A stretch of 64,000 bases of DNA, taken from Rhizobiaceae bacterium. Lineage in GTDB: Bacteria > Pseudomonadota > Alphaproteobacteria > Rhizobiales > Rhizobiaceae. The DNA lies in the NCBI GenBank assembly GCA_019635775.1, contig JAHBYU010000019.1:1-64000 (forward strand). The letters are read 5' to 3'. Below, piece by piece: positions 26,100 through 28,433 of this stretch (its first letter is position 1; every line of letters begins with the position of its first letter). A program made the position numbers and the translations under genes. Below the pieces are notes generated by a model, which was not told where the DNA came from, did no database searches, and saw nothing but the letters and a program-made list of their open reading frames with translations.

Positions 26100-26280
26100 T
26101 CGCGTGGCGCTATCCAAGCTAGGAATATTTGCGGTCGCCCCATCGTTCACCACAGAAGAAAGCTTAGCCCGCACGGTGTTTGGTCCCAACGCGTGCACGC
26201 GGGACTTTACCTATTCCATTGCATCCTGTTTCAAGCTACTTTTTCTTCGGGCTTGGGGCCTCAAGCAAATGAGAGGTAAG

Positions 26281-26409
26281 ATGAAAAAGCCTTACGACGT
26301 CCCCACGCTTGTGAAGAGATCCGTTCTTCCCGTGGTCACCGCGGGATCGATTGGCTCGGGTCCGCCTTCCCCGCCAAGTGCGCCTCCATCTCCGCAGGCT
26401 CCCGGCTAA
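26281..26409 (+). CDS. Putative RiPP precursor peptide A
   Basis: A 42-residue peptide starts at the ATG at 26281 with AGAGG just before it. The first part reads MKKPYDVPTLVKRSVLPVVT; its Y-x-x-P-x-L motif (Tyr5, Pro8, Leu10) and Thr20 resemble the leaders of lasso-family precursors. The rest, from about residue 22, is Gly/Pro/Ser-rich (GSGPPSPPSAPPSPQAPG). It contains no Cys and no acidic residue after Asp6, which excludes a normal lasso ring and lanthionines. The following genes encode a sulfotransferase and a DUF6065 protein. That it is modified is inference. Confidence 0.65.
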   Translation: MKKPYDVPTLVKRSVLPVVTAGSIGSGPPSPPSAPPSPQAPG

Positions 26410-26651
26410 GCTTCGTTTCGATCGCGTTGCCTGAATGTCCTGAAACGGAAAGGCGGGCGTATGTCCGGTTCCGTTGTCTTGGGTGCACCACTCGCGGTGG
26501 GCCTGACGGAGTCTGTCTCGCCGGATTCGTGAATATCCGGGCGCAGGATAACGCGAAGACCCTAGGAAATTCTGAGACTTAAGCGCTTCCAATGTCTCTA
26601 TTTTCAGGCTAGTTTTCTTATTGGGCTTGGGCGCGAGAAATGAGAGGTAAG

Positions 26652-26768
26652 ATGAAAAAGACTTATGAGACGCCCACGCTGGTTAAGCGGTCTGTTCTGC
26701 CGGCGATCACATCACAATCGATTGGGTCAGCTCCCCCCTCGCCGCCGTCTCCCCCGTCGGTTCCCTGA
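26652..26768 (+). CDS. Putative RiPP precursor peptide B
   Basis: This is the 38-residue paralogue of peptide A. It begins MKKTYETPTLVKRSVLPAIT, with the same Tyr5-Pro8-Leu10 motif and Thr20, then SQSIGSAPPSPPSPPSVP. Leader identity is high; the tail keeps PPSPPS but differs in length and end. Again there is no Cys, and no Asp/Glu after residue 6. The ribosome-binding site is identical to that of peptide A. It ends 136 bases before the sulfotransferase gene, same strand. Confidence 0.65.
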   Translation: MKKTYETPTLVKRSVLPAITSQSIGSAPPSPPSPPSVP

Positions 26769-26904
26769 GTTTCATATAGTCAATATTGTCTCGATTGTCG
26801 CCTTCACAGATGCGGGTGGGCGGCAATCGGGCTAGCTATCTTAACCTGCTTGTAGATCGTCGCATTGGCCGCATTGCCAGCGTGTCGAGTTTTTTGGAAA
26901 ATGA

Positions 26905-27678
26905 ATGGGTCTCAAAACCTGGCTGGGATTGAAGCAGCGGCGCGCCACTACGCCGCCAAAGTCACGGATTTTCTTCCTTCACATGCCAAAGACGGGAGGC
27001 GTATCGCTCTCCTCAGCGCTGGCTGAGGCCTATCCTTACTGGGCGGTGTTGCCGGACCCTTGCATGTGTGCCCGCAACGATGGGCACTACCCTCCTCTCG
27101 ACGTCGTCATCGACGCTATGAAGTTCAGACCCGAACGCATACACTACATTTGGGGCCATTTTCACATGAGTTGCGCGGGTCTGTTAGGCCCGGACGCAAA
27201 GACGGTTGTGGCCCTCCGTGACCCCGTCGAACGCATGATATCGTACTACCGTTACTGGTATCAGCGGCAGAACCTTACGCTGCAGTCATTTGAAGAAAAG
27301 TTCCGTGCAAACGGTTTCAAGCTCAGCTACGACAACGAGATGTGCCGCAGGCTTGCCGGAACGTTCGACTACTCATCTTCCCAAGATGCCGATCAGCGCC
27401 TCCATGCCATGTTTCGATCGCCGATTTCCGACCCTGTCAAATTGCTCGACGAAGCACGACGCGCACTCGATAAATGCGATTTCGTCGGCACAATGGACAC
27501 GCTTCCAAAGCTGGTGAGTCGCCTTTCTATGGAACTGGAGCGCAAGATCAAACTGCGGCATCACAACAAGTCGACCGCCCCGGACGAAATCGCAGCCATG
27601 GTCAGGGAACATGTCGAACGCGAGAACAAGCTCGATATAGCACTCTACGAGCACGCGAGGGCCATCGCAGCAGGATAG
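26905..27678 (+). CDS. Sulfotransferase family protein
   Basis: The 257-residue cytosolic protein has the 5'-phosphosulfate loop FLHMPKTGGVSLSSAL (about residues 24-39) and the 3'-phosphate-binding segment VALRDPVERMISYYRYW (102-118), as in the heparan-sulfate 2-O-sulfotransferase-like (sulfotransferase 2) group. It should move sulfate from PAPS to a hydroxyl or amine. It follows the two small peptide genes and lies 17 bases before the DUF6065 gene, so these two are likely co-transcribed. The substrate is unknown; a peptide or a surface sugar are both possible. Confidence 0.82.
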   Translation: MGLKTWLGLKQRRATTPPKSRIFFLHMPKTGGVSLSSALAEAYPYWAVLPDPCMCARNDGHYPPLDVVIDAMKFRPERIHYIWGHFHMSCAGLLGPDAKTVVALRDPVERMISYYRYWYQRQNLTLQSFEEKFRANGFKLSYDNEMCRRLAGTFDYSSSQDADQRLHAMFRSPISDPVKLLDEARRALDKCDFVGTMDTLPKLVSRLSMELERKIKLRHHNKSTAPDEIAAMVREHVERENKLDIALYEHARAIAAG

Positions 27679-27695
27679 TTTGCCGGAGCAGCGTG

Positions 27696-28433
27696 ATGAA
27701 ATTGATCTGCTATGTCCAAGGCGATGACACGGGCTTCGAGATCAGGCCTGCTCCGCAGCGTCGAGACTGGATGGACGCGGCTCATCAGCGAGCGCCCTAC
27801 CGTTGCCTGCCGCTGGTGGTGGCAAACGGACATGGCTGGGAAATCCTGTCACCCGTCGGTTTCACGGCGATCTGGAACGGCAGTCAGGCCACTGAAGGCA
27901 TCGTCGTCATGGAGGACATCGGCACCAAACCGCCGGCCCACAGCCATTTTGGCGAAGGGATACTGACCTTCAGGCTACCGTTCGTATTCCGGACGAACCC
28001 GGACACGGACCTTATTGTACAGGGACCTATCAACCGGCCGAAGGACGCCATCGCGCCGCTGACAGGGGTCGTGGAGAGTGATTGGGGTCCGTTCAGTTTC
28101 ACGATGAACTGGAAGTTCACACGCGCGAAGACCGCGATACGTTTCGCCAAGGGTGAGCCTTTCTGCCACATCTTTCCCGTAAGGCGGGGAGCGCTTGAAA
28201 GCATCCAGCCAGAGATGATTTCGATATCGGTTGATACAGAACTGAAGACTGCTTATGAAGAATGGGAAGTCGCGCGGGCGAAATTCAACGCCGATCTGAA
28301 GGTCGAGGGTTCCGAAGCCCGGATGGCTAAGTGGCAGAAGCACTACCAGCGCGGGGTGGACCCGCGCGGCAACACCGCGCCGGGATCGCACCGGACCAAA
28401 TCGAATCTCAAGCCTTTCAAGCGGATCGACTGA
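27696..28433 (+). CDS. DUF6065 family protein
   Basis: The 245-residue product starts at the ATG at 27696 behind GGAG. It matches what I recall of the DUF6065 family: RDWMDAAHQRAPYRCLPL near residue 22, GWEILSPVGFTAIWNG near 49, then SHFGEGILTFRLPFVFRTNP, GPINRPKDAIAPLTGVVESDW and FTMNWKFTR, and a C-terminal GSEARMAKWQKHYQRG. The fold and activity are not known to me. No signal peptide or membrane segment is seen. The tight link to the sulfotransferase suggests that they work on the same product. Confidence 0.75.
   Translation: MKLICYVQGDDTGFEIRPAPQRRDWMDAAHQRAPYRCLPLVVANGHGWEILSPVGFTAIWNGSQATEGIVVMEDIGTKPPAHSHFGEGILTFRLPFVFRTNPDTDLIVQGPINRPKDAIAPLTGVVESDWGPFSFTMNWKFTRAKTAIRFAKGEPFCHIFPVRRGALESIQPEMISISVDTELKTAYEEWEVARAKFNADLKVEGSEARMAKWQKHYQRGVDPRGNTAPGSHRTKSNLKPFKRID

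Follow-up and report, generated by a model that had tools for sequence, protein, structure and literature searches.

We analysed a 64,000-nucleotide stretch of DNA, here called the window, from a Rhizobiaceae bacterium (positions 1 to 64,000 of contig JAHBYU010000019.1, forward strand; assembly GCA_019635775.1), in which two small peptide genes, P1 and P2, are followed by genes for a putative sulfotransferase and a DUF6065 protein. P1 and P2 are probably precursors of linear ribosomally synthesized and post-translationally modified peptides (RiPPs) that bear a lasso-type leader and are matured in trans, with the DUF6065 protein serving their Pro-rich core and the local sulfotransferase perhaps adding sulfate. 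Genomes, contigs and loci are labelled G, C and L; the host genome is G000 and the contig of the window is C11. The initial annotation had described two tandem leader-bearing peptides, a sulfotransferase and a DUF6065 gene on one strand, and this arrangement was confirmed: the order on the plus strand is P1, P2, sulfotransferase, DUF6065, and the trio of peptide, sulfotransferase and DUF6065 recurs in L035, where it is conserved at 65-71% identity. The features of the locus are as follows (PAPS, 3'-phosphoadenosine 5'-phosphosulfate).

26201..26280, plus strand: stretch upstream of P1, partly duplicated 5' of P2 and ending in AATGAGAGGTAAG ahead of the ATG (by eye)
26281..26409, plus strand: P1, putative precursor peptide of 42 amino acids, with leader residues 1-21 (Y5, P8, L10, T20) and predicted core GSIGSGPPSPPSAPPSPQAPG
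26572..26651, plus strand: stretch upstream of P2, a partial copy of the P1 upstream stretch (by eye)
26652..26768, plus strand: P2, putative precursor peptide of 38 amino acids, with leader residues 1-21 and predicted core QSIGSAPPSPPSPPSVP
26905..27678, plus strand: PAPS-type sulfotransferase, carbohydrate O-sulfotransferase-like, with loops PKTGG.S and LRDP..R..S (from profile and motifs)
27696..28433, plus strand: DUF6065 protein with a dUTPase-like predicted fold (PF19541, E = 6e-97)

Both peptide reading frames are open, start with ATG and are preceded by an identical Shine-Dalgarno-like AGAGGTAAG, and Tyr5, Pro8, Leu10 and Thr20 are common to the two. Of the first 22 codons, 7 are identical in P1 and P2, 8 differ synonymously and 7 nonsynonymously, with 6, 3 and 11 differences at the first, second and third codon positions; this concentration at third positions is the pattern of a translated, constrained gene. 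Taken with the common upstream sequence and its ribosome-binding site, the third-position differences suggest that P1 and P2 are duplicates of one another. A leader profile made by hand from these peptides themselves scored 21.8 for each, while the reversed sequence of the same loci (1,084,231 bases) yielded 18 chance matches, the best at 13.6. In a scan against NCBIfam P1 had no match and P2 matched lasso_cyano at E = 0.008 (16.1 bits, under the cut-off of 33); among 28 leader peptides, lasso_cyano was matched by 15 and lasso_leader_L3 by two at E<=1. Assuming a cut after residue 21, the shared residues fall at -17 (Tyr), -14 (Pro), -12 (Leu) and -2 (Thr) in both peptides. A YxxPxL spacing is described for lasso precursors in the available text of PMC10368454, and the leader spacing of P1 and P2 would fit substrates of a lasso-type RiPP recognition element (RRE) and B2 peptidase. 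The lasso-family character that had been attributed to the YxxPxL lead therefore agrees with published geometry, and the proposal that the peptides are ribosomal precursors also stands, in that they resemble RiPP precursors bearing a lasso-type leader.

The RRE (B1) and B2 peptidase by which a lasso-type system is recognised were both found in the host genome, outside the window, on contig C1. A hidden Markov model (HMM) of the leader, built from P1, P2 and the peptides of L034 and L035, gave six matches in the host genome besides P1 and P2 (E 0.002 to 0.2), clustered on this contig. The C1 locus, L191, holds a peptide array of the type MKKxYxKPTLxKREKLSxVTA:

G000:C1:189224-191102 (L191:9224-11102), outside the window: ten tandem leader peptides

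L191 also encodes a PqqD protein (RRE; PF05402, 1.5e-11), a Transglut_core3/B2 peptidase (PF13471, 1.8e-13), an NTP_transf_5 protein (PF14907, 2.8e-19) and an HprK-like protein with a weak match (E = 0.0011, 18.9 bits vs a cut-off of 33.3); further genes encode AMP-binding, GNAT and PP-binding proteins. By its gene content L191 is a putative cyclase-less RiPP-type locus, and the earlier suggestion that the system may rely on genes elsewhere has thus gained its candidates: PqqD, B2, HprK-like and NTP_transf_5. Counterparts of all seven L191 proteins, at 54-76% identity, were noted in G046 (L228). Seventeen loci surrounding B2 genes, 15 of them fetched for that purpose, were examined by BLAST, and the four genes occurred together in 15. 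L221, from a genome of the host's genus (G003), has no NTP_transf_5 within its 19.9 kb; in G399 the locus, L219, is of the lasso type.

Association of leader and peptidase was assessed in one set of 397 genomes from the order, with p values that ignore kinship. The leader was matched at E<=0.01 in 13 genomes and B2 exceeded its cut-off in 27. B2 was present in 11 of the 13 leader genomes vs 16 of the 384 others (Fisher p=1.1e-12); the two leader genomes without it, G084 and G368, both gave partial leader matches. Within the host's family (21 genomes), leader and B2 occurred together in six, B2 only in one, the leader only in none and neither in 14. All seven genomes having a peptide-DUF6065 pair also have B2. 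Arrays of orphan peptides were seen by eye among unrelated genes in G396, G373 and G385, with the module elsewhere in those genomes. Because many leader peptides are such orphans, away from the module, P1 and P2 appear, to judge from this distribution, to be members of a family of precursors that are dispersed in the genome and matured in trans. Ser occupies position +5 in 36 of 74 tails, those of P1 and P2 among them.

DUF6065 was examined in 108 distinct canonical genes, from loci chosen largely by similarity to that of the window, counting peptides with a score of at least 14; duplicate fetches of one place were merged just for this analysis. A leader peptide lay within 1.5 kb in seven cases (window, L117 (= L034, L004), L035, L127, L116, L222 and L115), always on the same strand as DUF6065, upstream in six and downstream in L222. 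In L034, from the host's genus, the peptide adjoins DUF6065 and the sulfotransferase is absent. On a DUF6065 tree of 106 rows (2 of the 108 were dropped for shared labels), peptide adjacency required four changes, three of them forced by well-supported branches, and 0 of 500 shuffles gave a number as low; the adjacency is found in at least three separate places of the tree. Two of these loci also contain the module. In L115 (G080) a single strand carries three peptides, DUF6065 and an ABC exporter, with PqqD-B2-HprK-NTP_transf_5 oriented divergently from them, and L222, from an Aquibium genome (G401), carries a second DUF6065 and then five peptides adjoining the same module. The G080 DUF6065 protein has a C-terminal PqqD domain (35.2 bits vs a cut-off of 23.4); this fusion, the single one of its kind seen, is the strongest single pointer to DUF6065 working on leader-bearing peptides. 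At genome level, B2 was present in 5 of the 26 genomes with a strong DUF6065 match (E<=1e-70), with 1.8 expected (p=0.024, kinship ignored).

Tails of 12 DUF6065-adjacent peptides were compared with those of 62 others by seven permutation tests, uncorrected and with kinship ignored, leaving out rows that scored <15 (for example the L035 peptide and one of the five in L222) or exceeded 75 amino acids. Pro made up a larger share of the DUF6065-adjacent tails (0.28 vs 0.155, p=0.004) and charged residues a smaller one (0.02 vs 0.11, p=0.003), with more Ile/Leu/Val (p=0.010) and less Gly (p=0.010); differences in Cys (p=0.048) and aromatic residues (p=0.051) were borderline.

The DUF6065 protein is predicted to have a dUTPase-like beta fold, dUTPases making up all 50 PDB matches listed for its model by each of two programs. 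The predicted fold is shared with the dUTPase superfamily (PF00692), whereas sequence profiles barely match (canonical DUF6065 E = 0.46, no better than controls; three families pooled, 0.041), and the PRSG and C-terminal GFGSTG motifs found in all six dUTPases compared are both missing from the DUF6065 alignment. In an alignment of 31 DUF6065 sequences the invariant polar residues include C37, H84, N113 and E127, alongside many invariant aromatics. Fusions join DUF6065 to Cupin_8 (L085), 2OG-FeII_Oxy_3 (L130) and SapC (L110), and a 2OG-FeII_Oxy_3 open reading frame (ORF) lies directly upstream of it in L037; C-terminal extensions of >60 amino acids were present in nine DUF6065 rows, some representing the same place twice. 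The 2-oxoglutarate (2OG) fusions and collagen-like neighbours (below) prompted consideration of DUF6065 as a 2OG prolyl hydroxylase. An invariant HxD/E...H facial triad is the hallmark of 2OG/Fe oxygenases; no invariant HxD/E occurs in the 31 sequences, in which His is invariant only at 84 (HFG) and 232. Given the dUTPase-like fold and the missing metal triad, this candidate was dropped. No paper on DUF6065, PF19541 or phrog_7084 was found in the open-licence literature.

Divergent relatives of DUF6065, sorted by our own grouping into families B and C, matched the canonical profile with hhalign probabilities of 99.6 and 97.4, respectively. The best match of family C was phrog_7084 (1.5e-46); of 50 matching phage records, 46 belong to Halorubrum or Haloarcula viruses. 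Repetitive ORFs adjoin five of nine family B genes, and (NSSS)n-type ORFs adjoin seven of eight family C genes (L137, L141, L142, L144, L146, L148 and L152); by eye, those of L141, L144, L146 and L152 follow an apparent signal peptide. Around the eighth family C gene, in L139, the nearest 1.5 kb are free of repeats. Repeats and collagen-like neighbours were located as follows.

L135:6785-7303 and L140:6934-7527: PRVRPVSKIEIAGGMNP-type 51-base repeats (9-10 copies) beside family B DUF6065
L145:3436-4086: RMGSGELPPRVAKHVKATQV-type 60-base repeats beside family B DUF6065
L133:10239-10433 and L138:4249-4431: LGDG..P-type repeats beside family B DUF6065
L118:10448-11887 and L125:7674-9164 (DUF6065 tandem pair): collagen triple-helix repeat proteins directly upstream of canonical DUF6065, same strand (Pfam)

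Within 1.5 kb of DUF6065, tandem repeats whose period is a multiple of 3 were present in 12 of 47 canonical, 3 of 9 family B, 7 of 8 family C and 1 of 3 family D loci; the same scan at 3-4.5 kb, a zone missing or incomplete on both sides in 7 of the 67 loci, found them in one canonical, no B, two C and no D loci. Repeats were confined to the near zone in 22 loci vs the far zone in 2 (sign test ~4e-5 by our own arithmetic, the loci being related). Collagen-like neighbours of canonical DUF6065 were also recognised by pattern in L126 and L027, and all nine collagen-like matches in 234 sequences were within 433 bp of DUF6065, representing five distinct stretches in four genomes. Collagen was nevertheless set aside as a specific partner, and is at most a tendency, because PF01391 matches 160 of the 397 genomes (E<=0.001) vs 26 with strong DUF6065. 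The peptide-linked DUF6065 gene of G080 is sister to a collagen-linked clade on the tree. The recurrence of such neighbours suggests that DUF6065 proteins serve low-complexity chains. We offer as a tentative and somewhat doubtful extension that DUF6065 and its relatives, phrog_7084 included, may form a dUTPase-fold superfamily that matures low-complexity chains (Pro-rich RiPP cores, collagen-like Gly-X-Y, (NSSS)n and 17-20-residue repeats) and that in Alphaproteobacteria was recruited to a phosphopeptide-type RiPP class that lacks a cyclase and depends on B2, once via fusion to an RRE-type PqqD. On this view the predicted nucleotide-phosphate fold of DUF6065 could even act on kinase-made phosphoserine.

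The window sulfotransferase alone scored below the Pfam gathering threshold (17.8 vs 22 bits, PF03567). A four-member profile (window, L035, a paralogue from the host genome and a homologue from G367) matched a PDB chain of heparan sulfate 6-O-sulfotransferase with its C-terminal part (E = 6.7e-8); among the PDB matches listed up to E 1, the other eight distinct sequences were all sulfotransferases, none better than 0.024. The motifs PKT(G/A)G.S and LRDP..R..S, which we take to be the 5' and 3' PAPS-binding loops, are conserved in all four members. This profile match and both loops are shared with carbohydrate O-sulfotransferases of the heparan sulfate 6-O-sulfotransferase type, from which the window gene differs by its adjoining peptide precursors. 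A predicted structure model (2 rows; predicted local distance difference test score, pLDDT, 37.7) was discarded. Of 381 genomes of the order, two, including the host, have a match to the sulfotransferase at E<=1e-15. The initial annotation had tied both enzymes to the peptides. For DUF6065 the tie gained support, through its recurrence beside peptides, its place at two RRE/B2 modules and the PqqD fusion; for the sulfotransferase, seen with peptide and DUF6065 in the window and L035, it is weak. By eye, the host paralogue (G000:C3, L002/L114) adjoins a cupin-like gene, and a similar-looking cupin-like gene lies upstream of the L035 trio (L035:1558-1962). An ORF in L133 (10895-11590), near a divergent DUF6065 and a repeat peptide, also resembles a sulfotransferase by eye (YKTGSTS loop).

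We infer the use of the C1 enzymes by P1 and P2, and every chemical step of the following mechanism with its place in the order. The PqqD-type RRE from contig C1 would bind the YxxPxL leader of P1 and P2, and the C1 B2 peptidase would cut them after residue 21. The C1 HprK-like protein may phosphorylate Ser at core position 5, which NTP_transf_5 would elaborate. The local DUF6065 protein would act on, or hold, the Pro-rich tail, and the local sulfotransferase would sulfate a hydroxyl, either that of Ser or one of a sugar placed on Ser. We are most confident of the first part, recognition and cleavage of P1 and P2 by the C1 PqqD/B2 pair, which is quite likely; action on or holding of the tail by DUF6065 is likely, by a smaller measure; and modification of the peptides by the sulfotransferase is possible, with even chances. 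By analogy, the HprK-like and NTP_transf_5 proteins suggest a phosphorylated, perhaps glycosylated, Ser, for which pseudomycoidin is a precedent in the available text of PMC9266682. An enzyme of the carbohydrate sulfotransferase type would be compatible with either target, the Ser or a sugar attached to it.

Several observations weigh against this mechanism. P1 and P2 sit on a different contig (C11) from the RRE and B2 genes (C1), and at a looser leader threshold (E<=0.1) B2 was present in just 14 of 31 genomes, most of the added matches being partial. No leader peptide lay within 1.5 kb of 101 of the 108 DUF6065 genes. Among 74 distinct leader peptides, from loci that are a non-random draw, 62 were more than 2.5 kb from DUF6065; peptides in general thus lie mostly away from the enzymes, a distribution that the initial annotation had named as counting against its proposal. 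The neighbours of DUF6065 in non-redundant loci were, by eye, mostly unrelated genes, 21 of the 26 strong-DUF6065 genomes lack B2, and DUF6065 and leader were unassociated at genome level (2/26, p=0.21). Tail Ser content was equal between DUF6065-adjacent and other peptides (p=0.64, 12 vs 62). Among L001-L113 the window and L035 are the sole loci in which the sulfotransferase neighbours DUF6065, the 17 module loci all lack it, and the dUTPase-like fold of DUF6065 names no chemistry. Peptides of L198 (G108) and L210 (G212) lie in a window-like gene block with DUF6065 absent from the locus, and the sulfotransferase had no match in either genome; by eye the block comprises RlpA-PBP-TMK-HolB-MetG-TatD and TerC-RimO-BMP, in an order that differs between loci. 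Such a distribution would be expected if P1 and P2 were matured by the C1 enzymes while the sulfotransferase and DUF6065 were unrelated neighbours with other substrates, such as cell-surface sugars or repeat proteins: most counted leader peptides are away from DUF6065, most DUF6065 genes are without a peptide, and L198 and L210 keep peptides in the same block with the enzymes absent. We consider this improbable in view of the conservation of the trio in L035, the constant strand of DUF6065-peptide pairs in at least three places of the tree, and the DUF6065-PqqD fusion.

It is also conceivable, though rather unlikely, that DUF6065 is no enzyme acting on the peptide and serves as a binding or adaptor domain, keeping low-complexity chains in place for its partner enzymes, an explanation that overlaps the one we prefer. 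Its fusions across lineages to 2OG-type enzymes (Cupin_8, 2OG-FeII_Oxy_3), SapC and PqqD would be accounted for, as would the many invariant aromatics and the lack of an invariant HxD/E pair; long extra domains, however, occur in few of the 108 genes, and the invariant C37, H84, N113 and E127 suggest a site. That P1 and P2 are small unmodified peptides sharing an N-terminus by chance would agree with there being no known product, which also counts against maturation in trans, but is very unlikely given the codon constraint over the leader, the leader geometry, the genome-level link to B2 and the tandem peptides adjoining RRE and B2 genes. Least probable is a true lasso locus with a distant cyclase. 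The leader motif and Thr(-2) are present, and the host has Asn_synthase matches elsewhere, the main one at C34:93393 and a weak one at C1:5055, ~180 kb from the C1 locus, whose B2 gene is at C1:187795. The acceptor of a lasso ring, however, is an Asp or Glu at core position 7-9. Both residues are missing from the P1 and P2 cores, which precludes formation of a lasso ring; the bsf lasso core has Asp8 (PMC10368454, available text). Asn_synthase was unmatched on contig C11 and inside the C1 module, and the relatives G108 and G399 each keep a second B2, apart from the module, beside Asn_synthase. With cores lacking the acceptor residue and a module lacking the cyclase, assignment as a lasso peptide locus was rejected.

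Among known systems the C1 module appears most like the linear polyphosphorylated peptides (LPPs; Popov et al. 2026, PMC13381572), phosphorylated RiPPs which the available text of that paper states to be restricted to Bacillota and to use an SpI-like peptidase. The same text gives LPPs a YxxP leader with consensus YxxPxVLxHQxIxFETxxS, a discrete RRE, an HprK-like kinase, an NTP transferase and an MsbA-like exporter in the cluster, with no macrolactam cyclase. The YxxP leader, the RRE, the HprK-like protein (a weak match) and the NTP transferase without a cyclase are shared by the C1 module and its relatives; in contrast, they have a Transglut_core3 (B2) peptidase, belong to Alphaproteobacteria and come with arrays of up to ten precursors, orphan precursors and DUF6065. 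The LPP leader consensus is unmatched, four close loci here reading Y..PT.[VT]KR..LP.[VI]T, and an ABC_membrane plus ABC_tran protein lies beside DUF6065 in L115. Phosphorylated lasso peptides, as described in the available text on bsf (PMC10368454) and on paeninodin and pseudomycoidin (PMC9266682), share the leader spacing, PqqD-type B1, B2, HprK-type kinase and nucleotidyltransferase; here, by contrast, the module has no cyclase gene and the cores have no Asp/Glu ring acceptor. No cyclase-less RRE/HprK system in Alphaproteobacteria was found among the matches listed from the open-licence literature. Our results point to a cyclase-less relative of the phosphorylated lasso peptides in this class, one that cluster-based genome mining would miss because its precursors are scattered over the genome. 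They also give a testable role to a family without an assigned function: a dUTPase-like fold is tied to peptide maturation, and one member occurs naturally fused to an RRE-type domain. Should the part played by DUF6065 be proven, it would represent a maturation protein of a new kind.

Further neighbours of DUF6065 were noted. Proteins of 322 amino acids with no Pfam match, related by eye (MIV.LTT start), adjoin it in two lineages (L120:8105-9073 and L124:9260-10228). An autotransporter gene lies upstream of it on the same strand in L039 (3210-5777, Pfam) and in other Rhizobium/Mesorhizobium-type loci (a group of 10). On Sinorhizobium meliloti megaplasmids many of the matches listed cover DUF6065 as two separate pieces, which suggests a decayed gene.

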